NCBI GenBank assembly: GCA_030739735.1
Contig: JASLYQ010000006.1
Span: 16,548-80,547, forward strand
Source of the DNA: Alphaproteobacteria bacterium
GTDB lineage: Bacteria > Pseudomonadota > Alphaproteobacteria > UBA7887
Direction: 5' to 3'
Length of the DNA: 64,000 nt
Position 1 is the first letter of the stretch. Each line of letters starts with the position of its first letter. The translations under genes were made by a program, and so were the position numbers. Below the pieces are notes generated by a model. It was not told the origin of the DNA. It did no database searches and was given only the letters and a program-made list of their open reading frames with translations. Shown in pieces: positions 12,321 through 19,033 of the stretch.

Positions 12321-13619
12321 TCAGAAGCTCATCTGCAAACCGCTAAAGACCGCTATAGCGTCGTTATCCAGGTTGGCCGCACCGTTGACGGCGAAGTCGG
12401 TCGCGTTTTGAGTGTGGTCGATGTCAACACCCTGTATGCCAGTATGCCAACTGAGGCCTGGAGCGACCTGATAATTCGAGCCGATTGTCCAGATATCAAC
12501 CTCGTACGTCTCGCCCAGCGCTGACGGCGCGACCGTGAAGCCAGTCGTAACGCCAGTGGTGGCATGGGCGAGCGCCGCAGCCGCGGTAACCACCCGGTTC
12601 GAGGATACGACTTCAGTGGAAACGTACTGCACCTCGAAACTTAACGGTCCAGCCCAGTAGGCCGCATCTAGACCCCAGCCGTCGCTCTTGAAGCCGTAGT
12701 CGCGGCCCTTGATGGCACCTGAGGTGCCTTCATCATAGTATTGGCCGCCCACCTGGAAGCTACCCCAACCGATCTGAGCGCTGAGCATGTACATGCCCAA
12801 ACCGCTCACGTCCTTGTGGGTGTTCAGACCAGTTGTGCCGGTGGCAGCCGAGAGATAGCCATCGGAAATGGCGCCGACAGCCGATAATCCGACATTGACA
12901 TCGCCAAAGTCGCCCTTCCACTGGCCACCGAAACCGATCTTGTCCTTGTAAACGCCGGCGGCATTGTCAACAGCGTTGACGGCATTGTCAGACGTATTGG
13001 GGGCGTAAGTGATTCCAGCCTGGAAGCCCGATACGATCGGAGTGTAATAGGTGACACCGATCCCCTTAGAGAACCATTGGCGGTATGGCGCGCCAGCGCG
13101 AGACCTGATGCCAGACACGGCTGCACCGCCACCATCGGCTGCGCCCGCGGGCATGGCAATGTAGCGCAGCCCAGCGTCAATACCGCCGTTAGCGCCGGCA
13201 TAGGTTCTACACGTCGGACAGAGGGCCATGCCTGAGTCGGCGTGGAAGTTGTTGCCAAACTCAAGCGAGCCCCAGCCACCATTCATAAAAATGTACTCAC
13301 GGCCAGGCCAACCGTTCGTATTTACGCCGCCGGTGGCCATGTGTATCGTCGCGCCATAGGCGAGGCCGTTATCAGCCGTCAACTCGCCGTTCATCCAGAT
13401 CTCGGCAAAACGGCCATTTATCATACCATGATCTGAGGTATTGGCGCTGCCTGCGTAGTTGTCGTTAGAGGCTGTGCCTACTTCCCACTGCGACACCATT
13501 CCCGCGGTTAGAACTTGCGTGCCGTCCTCATCTTGCGACTGGAGGGGTACGGCAAGCGCGCTACCAGCGACCACCGATGCCCCAACCAGTGCGGTAGTTC
13601 CAAGAAGAAGTTTCTTCAT
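12321..13619 (-). CDS. Gram-negative porin (outer-membrane beta-barrel)
   Basis: A 432-aa protein with a cleavable signal peptide (MKKLLLGTTALVGASVVAGSALA). The mature part is rich in alternating Gly/aromatic beta strands and ends in Phe (LQMSF), the usual beta-barrel assembly signal. FNGGWGSLEFGN-type and SGFQAGITYAP-type strands fit general porins of the porin_4 type. The ATG at 13619 starts the signal peptide; an in-frame start 18 nt upstream is less likely. A strong terminator follows and a region of about 290 nt without genes precedes it, so it is probably monocistronic and highly expressed. Substrate specificity cannot be read. Confidence 0.9.
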   Translation of the reverse strand: MKKLLLGTTALVGASVVAGSALAVPLQSQDEDGTQVLTAGMVSQWEVGTASNDNYAGSANTSDHGMINGRFAEIWMNGELTADNGLAYGATIHMATGGVNTNGWPGREYIFMNGGWGSLEFGNNFHADSGMALCPTCRTYAGANGGIDAGLRYIAMPAGAADGGGAAVSGIRSRAGAPYRQWFSKGIGVTYYTPIVSGFQAGITYAPNTSDNAVNAVDNAAGVYKDKIGFGGQWKGDFGDVNVGLSAVGAISDGYLSAATGTTGLNTHKDVSGLGMYMLSAQIGWGSFQVGGQYYDEGTSGAIKGRDYGFKSDGWGLDAAYWAGPLSFEVQYVSTEVVSSNRVVTAAAALAHATTGVTTGFTVAPSALGETYEVDIWTIGSNYQVAPGLSWHTGIQGVDIDHTQNATDFAVNGAANLDNDAIAVFSGLQMSF

Positions 13620-13908
13620 AAGGTTTTCGACCTCCACACTGTGGGTCCATGGGTCCGCGGCTGCATGAACCCCGTGACCCGGCTCTTAACAATCGCCTGG
13701 GCAACCAACACAACAAGTCGCCAGGCCCAAAATGGTCGCTCTCAAGGTCGCTTGCCAATCCTCGGCACATCCCTCGAAACCGGCGCGCGCAACATAAGCT
13801 ACGCACGTCGTCCAGTTTAACTATTTTATGGGCATGCAAATCAACCTTTTCCGACGTCGGACTGCGTTCTTCATGTTACGTTGTGGCAAAAAAGCAACAA
13901 ATGGCGCC

Positions 13909-16900
13909 TCAACTAGTGTCCCGGGTGGGTTCTGGCTCAGCTAGGGCGGCCGCCAGCGGCGCGAGCGCTTCCCCCAGACGTTGTGCCCCTTCGTGACACA
14001 TCGCGCGTTGCCGGTCCACGATGGCAGCGCAAGCGGCCTCTTCGGCAAGGTCGAGGAAGCGCAGCAACGCTGCTGCTGCTTCTGTCGGCCTGTCGAGGAG
14101 GTCCGCGAAGGCGATCTCATGCACGGGCAGCGCCAGGACTTGCCGCCAATGGTCGAGCAGGCGCGCCACATTGCGGGCATGGCCGCCGATATCGCCGAGA
14201 TCGTAGGCATAGGGGCTGGCGCCGGCGAAATCCTCAAAATAGCAGGCGAGGCCGGCATCCAGCGGGTCGCGGTGGCAGATCACCACGCGGGCATCCGGGA
14301 ACAAGCTTTGCGCCAGGCCGAGGTGGAAGACGTTGCCGGGGACCGCTTCGACGGCCCAGACTACGCTGGGCGCGCGCTCGGCCAGGCGCGTGCGGTGCGC
14401 TGTCGCCACGGTCGCACCGCCCTCACCGGCCAGCGCAGCCATATCATCGAGATAGCCGAAGCCCTGGCCACCGAGGCTCCGCGCGCTGGCGTGCAGCAGG
14501 CCGGCCGGGCCGAGGCCTTTGATGCGCGAATGGGAGGCAAGCATGCGTTCGACTAGGCGCATCCCTGAGCGCTGCATGCCGACCACGAAGAGCGGGCGCG
14601 GTTCGTTGGGTGCCAGCGCTACGAGGGGGCCGGCGGGAAAGGCAGCGATGAGGCGTTCGACCAGGGCCGTCTCTGCTGCCAGGTCCAAGCGCACGCCTTT
14701 GAGGCGATTGGCCTCGTGCGCGGTCTCCAATGCGGCTTTCGCCTCGCCCAGGCGGTAGCGGGCGCGGGCCAGGGCGAAGAGCAGCTGGCTGCGCAGCACC
14801 CCAGGCAGGTCGTCGCGCGCGAGGGCTGCCTCCAGGCCATCTCTTGCCGATGCCAGCTCGGCCGGACCGGCGGTTTCGGCACGCGCCAGGGCGAGCTCGG
14901 GTTCATCGCCCGAGAGGCCCGCGAGCAACACCCTAGCGCCCGCTTGGTCGTCGAGCGCGGCGAGGCCGCATGCCGCGGCCGCCGCCGCGCCGCGCCTGGC
15001 GGCTGTACGGAAGGTCGCCGCGGCGGCCTCATCTCTGCCGGCAAACGCGTAGGCGTTGGCCAGTTCGCAGAGCAAGACGCCCGAGGTCGGGGCCTTGTCA
15101 CGCGTCCGCTCCAGCACCGCCACTGCCTGCTCGACTTCGCCGGTCTGCTGCAGGGCCGTGGCCAGGCGCCGGGCGCCTGCGGGCTCGCCCGGAACCAGGG
15201 CGTGGAGTTCGCGATAGGCTGCGAGCGCCGCGTCCAACTTGCCCGCTTGCATTAGGACGTCGCCGAGGGCGAGGCGAATCTGCGGCACCGTCGGCTGTAA
15301 CTGGGCGGCCCGCGCCAGGACCAGCTCAGCGCCCGGCAGGTCGCCAGTCTCGGCCAGGGCCTGACCGAGATGGGTCAGCCCACGGGCATCGTCGGGCTCG
15401 TGCTCTAAGCCCTTGCGGAAATGCCCCAGCGCCTCGTCAAAACGGCCCTGGGCTGCGACTGCCAGTCCGAGATTGTGGTGGCCTCCGGCGAAGGCGGGGT
15501 CGGCGGCAGTGGCGGCGCGGAACTCTTGCTCGCCTTCCTTGGCCTCGCCTCGTTTCAGGAGCGCCTGGCCTAAGGCATTGCGAACGCTGGCATTTTTTGG
15601 CTCGACGCGGGCCGCCATGCGAAAATGCTCCAGCGCCTCCTGCCCCTTGCCCTTGCCTTGTTCCAACAAACCCAGCTGCATCAGTGTCGGCGCATGCCGC
15701 GGAGCGCGCGCGAGGATGTTGCGATAGAGGGTTTCGGCTGTGGTGAGGTCGCCGTTACGGTGCGCTTCTGCCGCCGTTTCGAACAACCGCGCCGCAGCGT
15801 TGGCATCCTCCCAGGCCGGGTCGTCGACAGCCGGCGAGGCGAGCGCCTCGACGAGCGGTGCGAGATGCGCAGCATAGTGTTCGTGGCGTTTGACCGAGCC
15901 GCGGTAGATGGGTTGGCGCACCTGATCGTAGCTCGCCGTCAGGGTGCGGCGGGAGGAGCTGTGAAAGGCGAGACAGGCGTCGTCCCAAGGCAGGCCGAGG
16001 AAGGCGATCATCTGCCGGCTCACGCGCTCCTGATCGGCGACCAGCTCTTCGTAAGAAACCTCAAGCAGCTCGATGCCGCCGTCGCCCTGCCAATGGGCCA
16101 TGAGGCGCTCGTAAAGCCGATGCTGTGCGCCGAGGCTCGCCAGGTCGTGTGCAAAGCCGAGACCGTAAAAGAAATTCTGGAAATAGCACGACAGGCAGGT
16201 GTCGATCGGGTCGCGGGTGCAATGGATGATGCGCGCGCGAGGGAACAGCTGGGCGATCAGGCCCAGGTGGCGATGATTGTGTGGCAGCTTGTCGGTGGTC
16301 CGCTCGGCATTGCTCGAGAGCGCCGCAAGGCGCTCCAGGTGGGCCTCGGCGAAGCGGTCGAGCAATGCCTGATCGGCATCCGCCATGCAGTCCGGGAAGC
16401 GCGCGTCGCCGCCCATCTCGATGGCCATGGCCTTGCTGAGGTTGGGGATATCGGAAAGTTCGCCGGCGCCGTGCACGGCGGGATGGCTGGCCAGGATGGC
16501 TTCGACCAGGCTGGTGCCCGAGCGCGGCATGCCGACGATAAACACCGGCACTTCGCTGGTGTTGCTCGCCTGCGCCAGGCCTTCGCGCCAGCCCGCGTTA
16601 TAGACGCGCTCGTTGGCCGCGGCGTCGCGCACCTGGTTGGCATGGTCATAGGGCCGCGAGTCTAGCGCGTTGCCGCGAGCGTAGGCATCGAAGGCGTCGT
16701 CGTAAAGGCCGAGCGAATCGTTGAGGTCGCCGAGGCGGAAATACAGCACCTGTCGGGTCTCGTCATCGAGCTCGTGGTCGTCCAGCAATGCGACGATTCT
16801 GTCTCGCGCCTCCTGGCGCCGGTCGAGGCGCTTGGCCAGGACGGCGAACTCGGTGACCACGGAGGGGTCCTCGGGCGCGCTGTCGAGCAGCGGCTCGAAT

Positions 16901-17598
16901 CGCCGCCAGGCTTCGTCAAACCTTCCCTGACGCTCGAGATTATTGACCTGATCGACGGTAATTATGGTGCCATCTTCGCCGCTGGTGCCGGCGCGCTCGA
17001 ACAGCGTCAGGGCCTCCTCGTAGCGGTCGGCATGTTCGAGTGCCCGGCCCAGATACCTCTGAATCACCGAGTTTTCCGGTTTCAGTGCCAAGGCCCTTTC
17101 AAGGCACGGCACCGCTTTGTCGGGCTTGCGCTCCTTCATCAAGATGATGCCGAGATTGGCCAGCGTCTCGGGATTTTCGGGCCTGAGCTCGAGAGCGGCG
17201 GCAAAATGCGGTGCTGCCTCCTCGCCGCGGTGCAACTCACCCAGAGCGACGCCGAGATTGTTGTGCGCCGCGCCGTGCTGGGGCTCGAGCCTGAGCGCAG
17301 TCTCGAAATGGGGCACTGATTCCTCCGTGCGCTCGCTCTGGCGCAACGCCTCGCCGAGGTTGTTGTGGAAATCGGCGGCGTCGGGTGCCAGTGCCACGGC
17401 TTTTTCGAAATGGGGAATGGCGCGCTCAGGCTTGCCCAACTCGGAGGCAACGATCCCCGCCATGTTCCAGACTAGCGGGTGCTGTGGAATGCCCTTGGTC
17501 AGCTCACCGACCAGCGGGCGCGCCTCGGCAAAGCGCTGCTCGCGCATCAGGCGCACGGCCTTATCCAGCTTTTTCTGATGTTTCTCGCGGGGCGTCAT
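13909..17598 (-). CDS. Duplicated TPR-sulfotransferase protein
   Basis: A 1229-aa protein with two copies of a TPR array followed by a sulfotransferase domain. TPR array 1 covers about residues 10-330 (repeated LGEALRQ, NNLGVAL, NLGIIL patterns). Sulfotransferase 1 begins near 350 with VFIVGMPRSGTSLVEAIL, the PAPS-binding loop, and contains IHCTRDPIDTCLSCYFQNF. TPR array 2 covers about 610-980. Sulfotransferase 2 begins near 1000 with LFVVGMQRSGMRLVERML and contains VICHRDPLDAGLACYFEDF. The second PAPS loop has lost the usual Pro and Thr-Ser. The ATG at 17598 is chosen because upstream codons overlap the thiE end and are unconserved. The acceptor is unknown. Confidence 0.88.
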   Translation of the reverse strand: MTPREKHQKKLDKAVRLMREQRFAEARPLVGELTKGIPQHPLVWNMAGIVASELGKPERAIPHFEKAVALAPDAADFHNNLGEALRQSERTEESVPHFETALRLEPQHGAAHNNLGVALGELHRGEEAAPHFAAALELRPENPETLANLGIILMKERKPDKAVPCLERALALKPENSVIQRYLGRALEHADRYEEALTLFERAGTSGEDGTIITVDQVNNLERQGRFDEAWRRFEPLLDSAPEDPSVVTEFAVLAKRLDRRQEARDRIVALLDDHELDDETRQVLYFRLGDLNDSLGLYDDAFDAYARGNALDSRPYDHANQVRDAAANERVYNAGWREGLAQASNTSEVPVFIVGMPRSGTSLVEAILASHPAVHGAGELSDIPNLSKAMAIEMGGDARFPDCMADADQALLDRFAEAHLERLAALSSNAERTTDKLPHNHRHLGLIAQLFPRARIIHCTRDPIDTCLSCYFQNFFYGLGFAHDLASLGAQHRLYERLMAHWQGDGGIELLEVSYEELVADQERVSRQMIAFLGLPWDDACLAFHSSSRRTLTASYDQVRQPIYRGSVKRHEHYAAHLAPLVEALASPAVDDPAWEDANAAARLFETAAEAHRNGDLTTAETLYRNILARAPRHAPTLMQLGLLEQGKGKGQEALEHFRMAARVEPKNASVRNALGQALLKRGEAKEGEQEFRAATAADPAFAGGHHNLGLAVAAQGRFDEALGHFRKGLEHEPDDARGLTHLGQALAETGDLPGAELVLARAAQLQPTVPQIRLALGDVLMQAGKLDAALAAYRELHALVPGEPAGARRLATALQQTGEVEQAVAVLERTRDKAPTSGVLLCELANAYAFAGRDEAAAATFRTAARRGAAAAAACGLAALDDQAGARVLLAGLSGDEPELALARAETAGPAELASARDGLEAALARDDLPGVLRSQLLFALARARYRLGEAKAALETAHEANRLKGVRLDLAAETALVERLIAAFPAGPLVALAPNEPRPLFVVGMQRSGMRLVERMLASHSRIKGLGPAGLLHASARSLGGQGFGYLDDMAALAGEGGATVATAHRTRLAERAPSVVWAVEAVPGNVFHLGLAQSLFPDARVVICHRDPLDAGLACYFEDFAGASPYAYDLGDIGGHARNVARLLDHWRQVLALPVHEIAFADLLDRPTEAAAALLRFLDLAEEAACAAIVDRQRAMCHEGAQRLGEALAPLAAALAEPEPTRDTS

Positions 17599-17656: not shown

Positions 17657-18313
17657 TTAGCCCTTTTTGCTAGCGCGTCCCGCGGGATGAGTTGATTGGC
17701 AGCCATCGACCCACGCTGCTCCTTGCGTGGTCTCTGGGCGATCTGCCAGCGCCCCGAGCGCCGCGATACCGCAGGCGCCGCTGCCCCATAGACGGGTGGC
17801 GGTGCGGTCACTGATTCCGCCAAGCGCATAGACTGGCAATCGGGCCTGACGGACGAGGTTGGCGAAGCGCACAGGACCGAGCGCGTGGGCGCCGGGATGG
17901 CTGGCGGTGGCGAAGACCGGTGAGATCAGGCAGGCAGTGGCGCCCGCGCGCGCCGCGCGCACCAGCGCGGCCCGATCATGGGCCGCTGCGGTTACCATGT
18001 CGCGCTGGCGCCGGGCCCGCGCGACCAGGCCTTGTGGCAGGTGCACCCCGGCGCCGAGCGAAGCTGCCAGCCGGGCATCGTCGCCGATCAACAAGGTGAG
18101 ACGCTGGCGCCGGCAAAGCCGGGCGAGGGCCTTGGCAAGGTGCGCCCTGTCCGGTGCATCGTAGTCGCGTAGCAGCACGGCCGAGCCCGCCGGCAGGTGC
18201 GCCGCGGCGGTGAGTGGATCGGCCAGGCGCTTGCGATCTACGATGAGGATCAACGGCGGCAGGCCGCTGCCGTGTCGCGAATTGAGTCGCCGAGCCCAGT
18301 TTGCTACGGTCAT
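17657..18313 (-). CDS. Thiamine-phosphate synthase family protein (ThiE/TenI)
   Basis: A 218-aa TIM-barrel protein of the ThiE/TenI family. Seen: LLRDYDAPDR (phosphate/pyrimidine region), LLIGDDARLAASLGAGVHLPQ, LISPVFATASHPGAHALGP and VYALGGISD ... GACGIAALGAL. ThiE couples HMP-PP and thiazole phosphate to thiamine phosphate; TenI relatives aromatise thiazole tautomers. The motif set leans to ThiE, but TenI is not excluded. The open frame continues 169 codons upstream, but that part is antisense to yggS, so the ATG at 18313 is taken. Divergent from yggS with 27 nt between starts. Confidence 0.8.
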   Translation of the reverse strand: MTVANWARRLNSRHGSGLPPLILIVDRKRLADPLTAAAHLPAGSAVLLRDYDAPDRAHLAKALARLCRRQRLTLLIGDDARLAASLGAGVHLPQGLVARARRQRDMVTAAAHDRAALVRAARAGATACLISPVFATASHPGAHALGPVRFANLVRQARLPVYALGGISDRTATRLWGSGACGIAALGALADRPETTQGAAWVDGCQSTHPAGRASKKG

Positions 18314-18340
18314 GCGCAGCACACTAGAGCATGACCGCCC

Positions 18341-19033
18341 ATGGACGATACGCCCACCGTCGACATTGTCGCCAATCTCGCCGCCGTGCGCGCCCACATT
18401 GCTGACGCGGCAGAGGCTGTGGGCCGCGCGCGCGACGCCGTGACCCTGGTCGCAGTTTCGAAGAACTTTCCGGCCGAAAGTATCGTTCCCGTCCTCGAGG
18501 CCGGACAACGCGTGCTCGGGGAAAACCGCGTGCAGGAGGCGCAGGGCAAGTGGCCGGGTCTGCGCGAGCGGTTCGCCGATGTCACGCTGCATCTCATCGG
18601 CCCCCTGCAAACCAACAAGGCGCGCGAGGCGGTCGCCCTGTTTGATGTCATCGAGACCGTCGATCGGGCCAAGCTGGCGAAAGCCTTGCGTCAAGAGATG
18701 GACCGGCAGGGCTGCGAGCCCGTCTGTTACGTGCAGGTCAACACCGGCGCCGAGCCGCAGAAGGCGGGTGTGCTGCCCGGTGCCGCCGCCGCCCTCATAG
18801 AGACCTGCCGCGAGAGCCACCAGTTACCCCTGCAGGGGCTCATGTGCTTGCCCCCCATCGGAGACGACCCGGCGCGCCATTTTGACCTGCTCGCACGCAT
18901 CGCCGAAAACAACGCTCTGCCAATCCTTAGCATGGGTATGACCGCGGACTTCGAAACCGCCATCACGCACGGCGCCACTCATGTGCGCGTCGGCACCGCA
19001 ATCTTCGGGCCACGGCCGCCTCGGCAGCTCTAG
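18341..19033 (+). CDS. Pyridoxal phosphate homeostasis protein (YggS/PLPBP family)
   Basis: A 230-aa PLP-binding TIM-barrel protein of the YggS family. AVSKNFPAE carries the PLP Lys. GENRVQEAQGKW, HLIGPLQTNKAREAVALFD, SMGMTADFETAI and THVRVGTAIFG are all family hallmarks. It buffers intracellular PLP rather than catalysing a known reaction. It starts with ATG and shares a very short promoter region with the divergent thiE gene; both concern B-vitamin cofactors. Confidence 0.93.
   Translation: MDDTPTVDIVANLAAVRAHIADAAEAVGRARDAVTLVAVSKNFPAESIVPVLEAGQRVLGENRVQEAQGKWPGLRERFADVTLHLIGPLQTNKAREAVALFDVIETVDRAKLAKALRQEMDRQGCEPVCYVQVNTGAEPQKAGVLPGAAAALIETCRESHQLPLQGLMCLPPIGDDPARHFDLLARIAENNALPILSMGMTADFETAITHGATHVRVGTAIFGPRPPRQL

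Follow-up and report, generated by a model that had tools for sequence, protein, structure and literature searches.

We analysed a stretch of 64,000 nucleotides, hereafter the window, from a member of the Alphaproteobacteria (lineage UBA7887; GenBank assembly GCA_030739735.1, contig JASLYQ010000006.1, positions 16,548 to 80,547). On its reverse strand (13909..17598) lies one gene of 1229 codons in which a canonical sulfotransferase unit, built of a tetratricopeptide repeat (TPR) array and a catalytic domain, is joined to a second unit of the same build whose active site has been lost. In a different genus the orthologous units are encoded by two separate genes, for which reason we regard the window gene as the probable product of an evolutionary fusion between neighbouring TPR-sulfotransferase genes. 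The tyrosylprotein sulfotransferase (TPST)-like fold modelled for the second unit and the constraint on it led us to call this unit a TPR-pseudosulfotransferase, here joined to a canonical partner. By sequence and model it is likely a unit whose fold and TPR array are under selection while the active site is gone, and it is predicted to be inactive. With a split ortholog for comparison, the fused active/dead pair is a clear-cut example of an enzyme that has captured a pseudoenzyme partner, and one whose history can be traced.

The translation of the gene runs through 1229 residues without an internal stop, and the start at 17598 is backed by the position of the start in the ortholog. Pfam recognizes two stretches of Sulfotransfer_3 (PF13469; E 1.4e-72 over the full-length protein) together with many TPR matches, and the NCBIfam matches listed for the fused protein are to TPR-type families only. 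The host genome, a draft of 2.64 Mb and 98.8% complete, has this as its sole open reading frame (ORF) with PF13469, the matches of a whole-genome search being these two domains and no third. The doubling of the entire TPR-sulfotransferase unit, proposed in a preliminary description made from the letters alone, is thus borne out. Unit 1 comprises a TPR array (about residues 8-335, 16594..17577; recognized by TPR families of Pfam and 47.8% identical to the separate first gene of the ortholog) and a canonical sulfotransferase domain (residues 351-588, 15835..16548; Sulfotransfer_3 at 351-540). Unit 2 comprises a second array (about residues 600-965, 14704..15801; likewise found by Pfam, and 47.8% identical to the second gene of the ortholog) and the pseudosulfotransferase domain (residues 1000-1229, 13912..14601; also Sulfotransfer_3). 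The two phosphate-binding loops (P-loops) read in the translation exactly as that description quoted them, GMPRSGTS in unit 1 (residues 356-363, 16510..16533) and GMQRSGMR in unit 2 (residues 1007-1014, 14557..14580), and the later region that it reported as retained in unit 2, RDPLDAGLACYF, is present as well. Across 583 aligned columns the two units are 27% identical (E 1e-42), which marks them as ancient paralogs rather than an assembly duplicate; the collapse of two adjacent genes during assembly, named at the outset as a possible source of error, is ruled out, the halves being too different.

Unit 1 carries, in a Sulfotransfer_3 domain behind its TPR array, all of the conserved residues, namely the P-loop PRSGTS, the Glu of GAGE (Glu380), the Lys of TDKxP (Lys437), RDPxD and the C-terminal QVRQP, and in alignment with TPST the GAGE Glu and the TDK Lys stand opposite a Glu and a Lys of that enzyme. 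According to a review (PMC11625862), the catalytic base of sulfotransferases is a glutamate or a histidine, NST, 3-OST and TPST being alike here, and a P-loop Lys or Arg and an RxxxDxxxS motif are further marks. We infer that unit 1 is a canonical sulfotransferase of the TPST-like Sulfotransfer_3 type, predicted to be active and dependent on 3'-phosphoadenosine 5'-phosphosulfate (PAPS). The genome also holds two matches to adenosine 5'-phosphosulfate kinase, which bears on the supply of PAPS.

The picture in unit 2 is very different. We compared residues among 49 different sulfotransferase domains from the loci then at hand (47 besides the two unit-2 domains, i.e., those of the window and of the ortholog) and later added 39 more, for 88 in all (86 besides unit 2). 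Relative to the 47, the P-loop of unit 2 has changed from Pro to Gln, from Thr to Met or Leu, and from Thr/Ser to Arg. Pro1031 (14506..14508) replaces the catalytic-type Glu of GAGE, a Glu in 47/47 of the other domains and in 85/86 of the larger set, and Ala1085 (14344..14346) replaces the Lys of TDKxP, a Lys in 46/47 and 84/86, respectively; the same Pro and the same Ala occur in both unit-2 domains. The Asp preceding that Lys is a Glu in unit 2, and the QVRQP segment is absent. The degeneracy of the second site was therefore understated when only its P-loop was considered: the loop losses stand, and the Glu-to-Pro and Lys-to-Ala replacements and the loss of QVRQP come on top of them. Nor does the sequence indicate a second pocket fully competent for PAPS, as it lacks the catalytic residues; the model speaks to the fold only. 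What both unit-2 domains do keep is the Arg, Ser and Gly of the P-loop and the Arg of RDP. The RxxxDxxxS motif reads RDPLDAGLA in the window (Ser lost) but RLAADRCLS in the ortholog (Ser kept, DP lost). As these PAPS-binding remnants differ between the orthologs, PAPS binding is not an apparent conserved function of unit 2, and binding without catalysis, as originally suggested, is one option among several.

A further domain without these residues was seen in another family: a TPR-sulfotransferase at locus L151 (7867-9528, reverse strand, genome G105) lacks both the Glu (GGGA) and the Lys. It is the sole other loss of the Glu among the 86 domains and is a candidate second pseudosulfotransferase by its sequence.

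The history of the pair emerges from its distribution. Nine genomes of the order were searched, which make up one family with five genera, and a full-length relative of unit 2 was found in only two of them, the window's genome and that of a different genus (contig JANQOH010000002.1, metagenome-assembled genome IP29b_bin.128); the remaining matches to the unit-2 query were to the canonical domain or to TPR stretches. IP29b stands, in PMC9868349, for a colony of the coral Isopora palifera, of which the skeleton was sampled. In this coral-derived genome the two units are separate neighbouring ORFs of 592 and 638 amino acids in one frame, and the spacer consists of TGA ACG only, followed by the GTG start of the second ORF. 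The window junction, with the sequence ...EALASPAVDD..., is shorter by about 12 codons, and in it SPAVD, the start of the second protein of the ortholog, lies in frame (fusion point ASPAVD, residues 587-592, 15823..15840). In the unfused second gene the losses of Glu, Lys and P-loop residues are identical in position to those of unit 2, so the gene was already degenerate, its active site having been lost before the two genes became one. As the ORFs examined hold, as a rule, a single unit, fusion in the window lineage, and not fission, is the simpler direction; this direction is suggested by the sequences of two orthologs. Adjacent TPR-sulfotransferase genes are common among the sampled genomes, one such pair (L070) lying in one frame with a lone stop codon in between, and tandem neighbours of this kind are raw material for fusions.

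Between the two genera the unit-1 sulfotransferase domain is 59.8% identical and the unit-2 domain 40.8%, with differences at codon positions 1/2/3 of 0.297/0.269/0.566 and 0.458/0.375/0.675, respectively. Unit 2 thus evolves faster than unit 1, yet it is constrained. Stretches specific to unit 2 and common to both genera are QRSG[ML]R, GLGPAG, VEAVPGN and DFAGASPYAYDL. In a tree of 49 domains, for which the bootstrap did not converge, the unit-1 pair and the unit-2 pair were each recovered at 100/100, on stems of 0.56 and 1.92. Units 1 and 2 as sisters were not rejected by the approximately unbiased (AU) test (p 0.227), and the same holds for the halves of a second doubled protein, from genome G310 (p 0.174). 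An AlphaFold2 model of the unit-2 domain from a seven-row alignment reached a pLDDT of 76.8 and a predicted TM-score (pTM) of 0.76. In Foldseek the top 13 matches to this model were all TPST chains (E 9e-9 to 4e-7). Realigned with TPST1 in complex with adenosine 3',5'-bisphosphate (PAP), it gave a Z of 18.3 and a root-mean-square deviation of 3.5 over 214 residues at 13% identity, and other sulfotransferases scored a Z of 15.7 and below.

The pair is accompanied by a porin gene (Porin_4 of Pfam; 12321..13637, reverse strand), present among the nine family genomes in the same two as the pair and 56-58% identical between them. Being confined to the same 2/9 genomes, porin and pair came or went together. 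In both genera a thiE-like gene (Pfam TMP-TENI in the window) stands directly before gene 1 and the porin lies downstream, the whole cassette being located between the thiE-like gene and a DUF3576 gene (Pfam); in the window this arrangement was seen at 12321-13637 and 17657-18820. Five of the other family genomes (L104-L108) have no more than about 0.4 kb between the thiE-like gene and the DUF3576-leuS genes, too little to accommodate a sulfotransferase pair or a porin, and neither was found in the fetched stretches of these five.

Taken as a whole, these data are probably best explained by the fusion of an active and a dead partner, in which unit 1 would sulfate an exported protein and unit 2 would serve in docking or regulation. 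In the ancestral state, as still suggested by two genera, an active and a dead gene would have stood with the porin between the thiE-like and DUF3576 genes; in the window lineage the short junction, a stop and a start codon within about 12 codons, would then have been lost to give a single chain. The fused protein shows no signal peptide by eye and would be cytosolic, where PAPS is made. Its TPR arrays would bind the unfolded exported protein, for which the neighbouring porin is the foremost candidate; unit 1 would sulfate this protein with PAPS before export, and unit 2 would be a docking or allosteric partner of unit 1. The activity of unit 1, its substrate and the role of unit 2 are all inferred. 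Several points weigh against this explanation. If a cytosolic enzyme is to act on a protein of the outer membrane, the modification has to come before export, and the porin, 271 bases downstream, may have its own promoter. Just two orthologs are known, both from draft genomes, and the window junction rests on a single assembly. The alignment used for modelling includes active relatives, which pull the unit-2 model to their fold, and an earlier model built on only two rows was of low quality (pLDDT 55.3) and was set aside.

Other explanations share part of this evidence. Unit 2 might have been re-purposed, either as a regulator of unit 1 that binds PAPS, PAP or some other ligand, or as an enzyme for a different reaction with its active site shifted. 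The P-loop and RDP residues kept in both unit-2 domains, and RDPLD intact in the window, speak for this; however, the catalytic-type Glu, the Lys and the P-loop Thr/Ser are gone from both, and the residues of the 3'-phosphate site were lost differently (LACYF in the window versus RLAAD in the relative), so that we find it unlikely. More doubtful still is the idea of a passenger in decay, with unit 2 as a superfluous duplicate retained only through fusion or linkage: its sulfotransferase domain is indeed the faster one and sits on a long stem in the tree, but both genera have an open frame and share the novel motifs QRSG[ML]R, GLGPAG and VEAVPGN, and differences at codon position 2 are far below those at position 3.

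That the single ORF of the window is an assembly or sequencing error, the real genome having two genes like its relative, would fit with the single assembly and the very short spacer in the relative. A junction without a frameshift, a length difference of about 12 codons, the SPAVD start in frame and halves too different to collapse render it highly improbable. The last alternative is compatible with the fusion of an active and a dead partner and concerns only the meaning of the fusion: the two might already have formed a complex, in which case the fusion changed nothing. In the relative the two genes directly adjoin in one frame, and the gene order is conserved; both observations point in this direction, and we hold it, on sequence grounds, to be a real possibility, if somewhat short of an even chance.

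Doubling itself is not confined to the window gene. In a survey of 385 genomes of the class (Sulfotransfer_3 match threshold 1e-15; counts of double ORFs are lower bounds), 146 had a Sulfotransfer_3 match, and five ORFs of at least 1000 amino acids were among the matches listed, of which at least two, those of the window and of G310, have two domains. Other long ORFs (1035, 1064, 1135, 937 and 926 amino acids) have one such domain each, matched in two pieces in those of 1135 and 937. The G310 gene (L069 1393-5115, reverse strand) is an ORF of 1241 amino acids; beside it, in divergent orientation, lies a gene for an autotransporter (Pfam Autotransporter, L110 11685-14330). Its protein shares the two-unit layout of the window gene; however, both of its sites are canonical (GMPRSGTT, GAGE), it belongs to another family, and its halves fall elsewhere in the tree. 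A doubled protein with both sites intact means that doubling is not unique and that doubling and degeneration are separate matters. A contig scan with the unit-2 domain, whose two peptide patterns reach close relatives only, returned one locus, the known relative. Among viral contigs (IMG/VR) a unit-1 profile found four relatives with canonical motifs (L088-L091), a unit-2 profile had zero matches, and further viral searches added nothing new.

Each half of the window protein has the architecture of the bacterial TPR-sulfotransferases (TPR plus Sulfotransfer_3); unlike them, the chain holds two units, the second without catalytic residues. The underlying kind is already known, and what is new here is a TPR-sulfotransferase with its own pseudoenzyme half. 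Among solved structures, TPST1 and TPST2 come closest both to the sequence of unit 1 (about 1e-11) and to the modelled fold of unit 2 (Z 18), but they are animal enzymes, a TPR array is not aligned in the solved chains, and the Glu and Lys that TPST shares with unit 1 are missing in unit 2. Tyrosine as a target is suggested by this likeness in sequence and fold only. For an active and a catalytically dead paralog working as a pair, an analogy may be drawn with trypanosomatid deoxyhypusine synthase, in which, according to PMC3663545, a dead paralog activates its live partner; that enzyme is unrelated, its chains are separate, and activation was measured there, whereas the window pair is known from sequence. 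Pseudoenzymes are described as scaffolds or modulators in PMC5106787, which names sulfotransferases among enzymes with non-catalytic properties. RaxST of Xanthomonas, a bacterial sulfotransferase that PMC4216712 treats alongside a secretion system, is likened here by description only. Our literature search turned up no paper dealing with fused or dead TPR-sulfotransferases, none linking TPR-sulfotransferases to barrel genes, and no reported substrate for them.

A more interesting lead than the fused gene is the link of TPR-sulfotransferases to surface barrels. Sixty fragments around high-scoring TPR-sulfotransferase genes were hand-chosen from the survey lists, one per genome; three (L117, L127 and L157) were dropped for want of a called sulfotransferase gene, leaving 57 scored loci, from which the window and its ortholog were excluded. 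With a signal peptide, a length of at least 250 amino acids and a C-terminal beta signature as criteria, a barrel gene stood directly beside the sulfotransferase gene in 19/57 loci, spread over 13/35 families. By distance, barrels made up 19/118 genes at ±1, 1/109 at ±2 and 5/518 further out (Fisher p 1e-11), and 13 of the 19 were upstream and on the same strand. Both the idea and the scoring rule were derived from the first 20 fragments (6/18 usable ones positive); among the 40 fetched after it, 13/39 loci had a barrel gene at ±1. A Pfam scan of 10 of the 19 confirmed all 10, as five TonB-dependent receptors, three autotransporters and two porins. Around TPR genes without a sulfotransferase, none of 78 genes at ±1 in 40 loci was a barrel; these control loci were hand-picked, and their genomes differ from the test genomes.

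Tentatively, then, bacterial TPR-sulfotransferases could be a surface-protein modification system, each standing beside a barrel (TonB-dependent receptor, porin or autotransporter) that is sulfated before export, and the window lineage might have gained a dead docking or control subunit, first as a separate gene and then fused. Such a general rule we hold to be possible rather than probable. For the explanation given above for the window gene, the enrichment beside barrels counts in favour, and the 38/57 loci of this survey that have no adjoining barrel gene count against. The strong adjacency names testable substrates, and sulfated receptors and porins in alphaproteobacteria would, if real, mean one more protein modification on the surface of these cells.

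Several further neighbourhoods were recorded. A TonB-dependent receptor, porin or autotransporter adjoins the TPR-sulfotransferase, mostly upstream and on the same strand, in L122, L123, L126, L129, L130, L135, L137, L138, L140 and others, and the porin beside the gene of L155, from another family, is related to the window porin (27%, E 2e-18). Genes that look flagellin-like by eye adjoin the TPR-sulfotransferase in two genomes of one genus (L124 7982-9154 and L128 7611-8741). Finally, a gene with the common start tDYE.G.DNI.f.GLD lies on the opposite flank of the TPR-sulfotransferase in four loci (L129 10797-12434, L130 6452-8059, L135 6206-7900 and L137 8881-10491).

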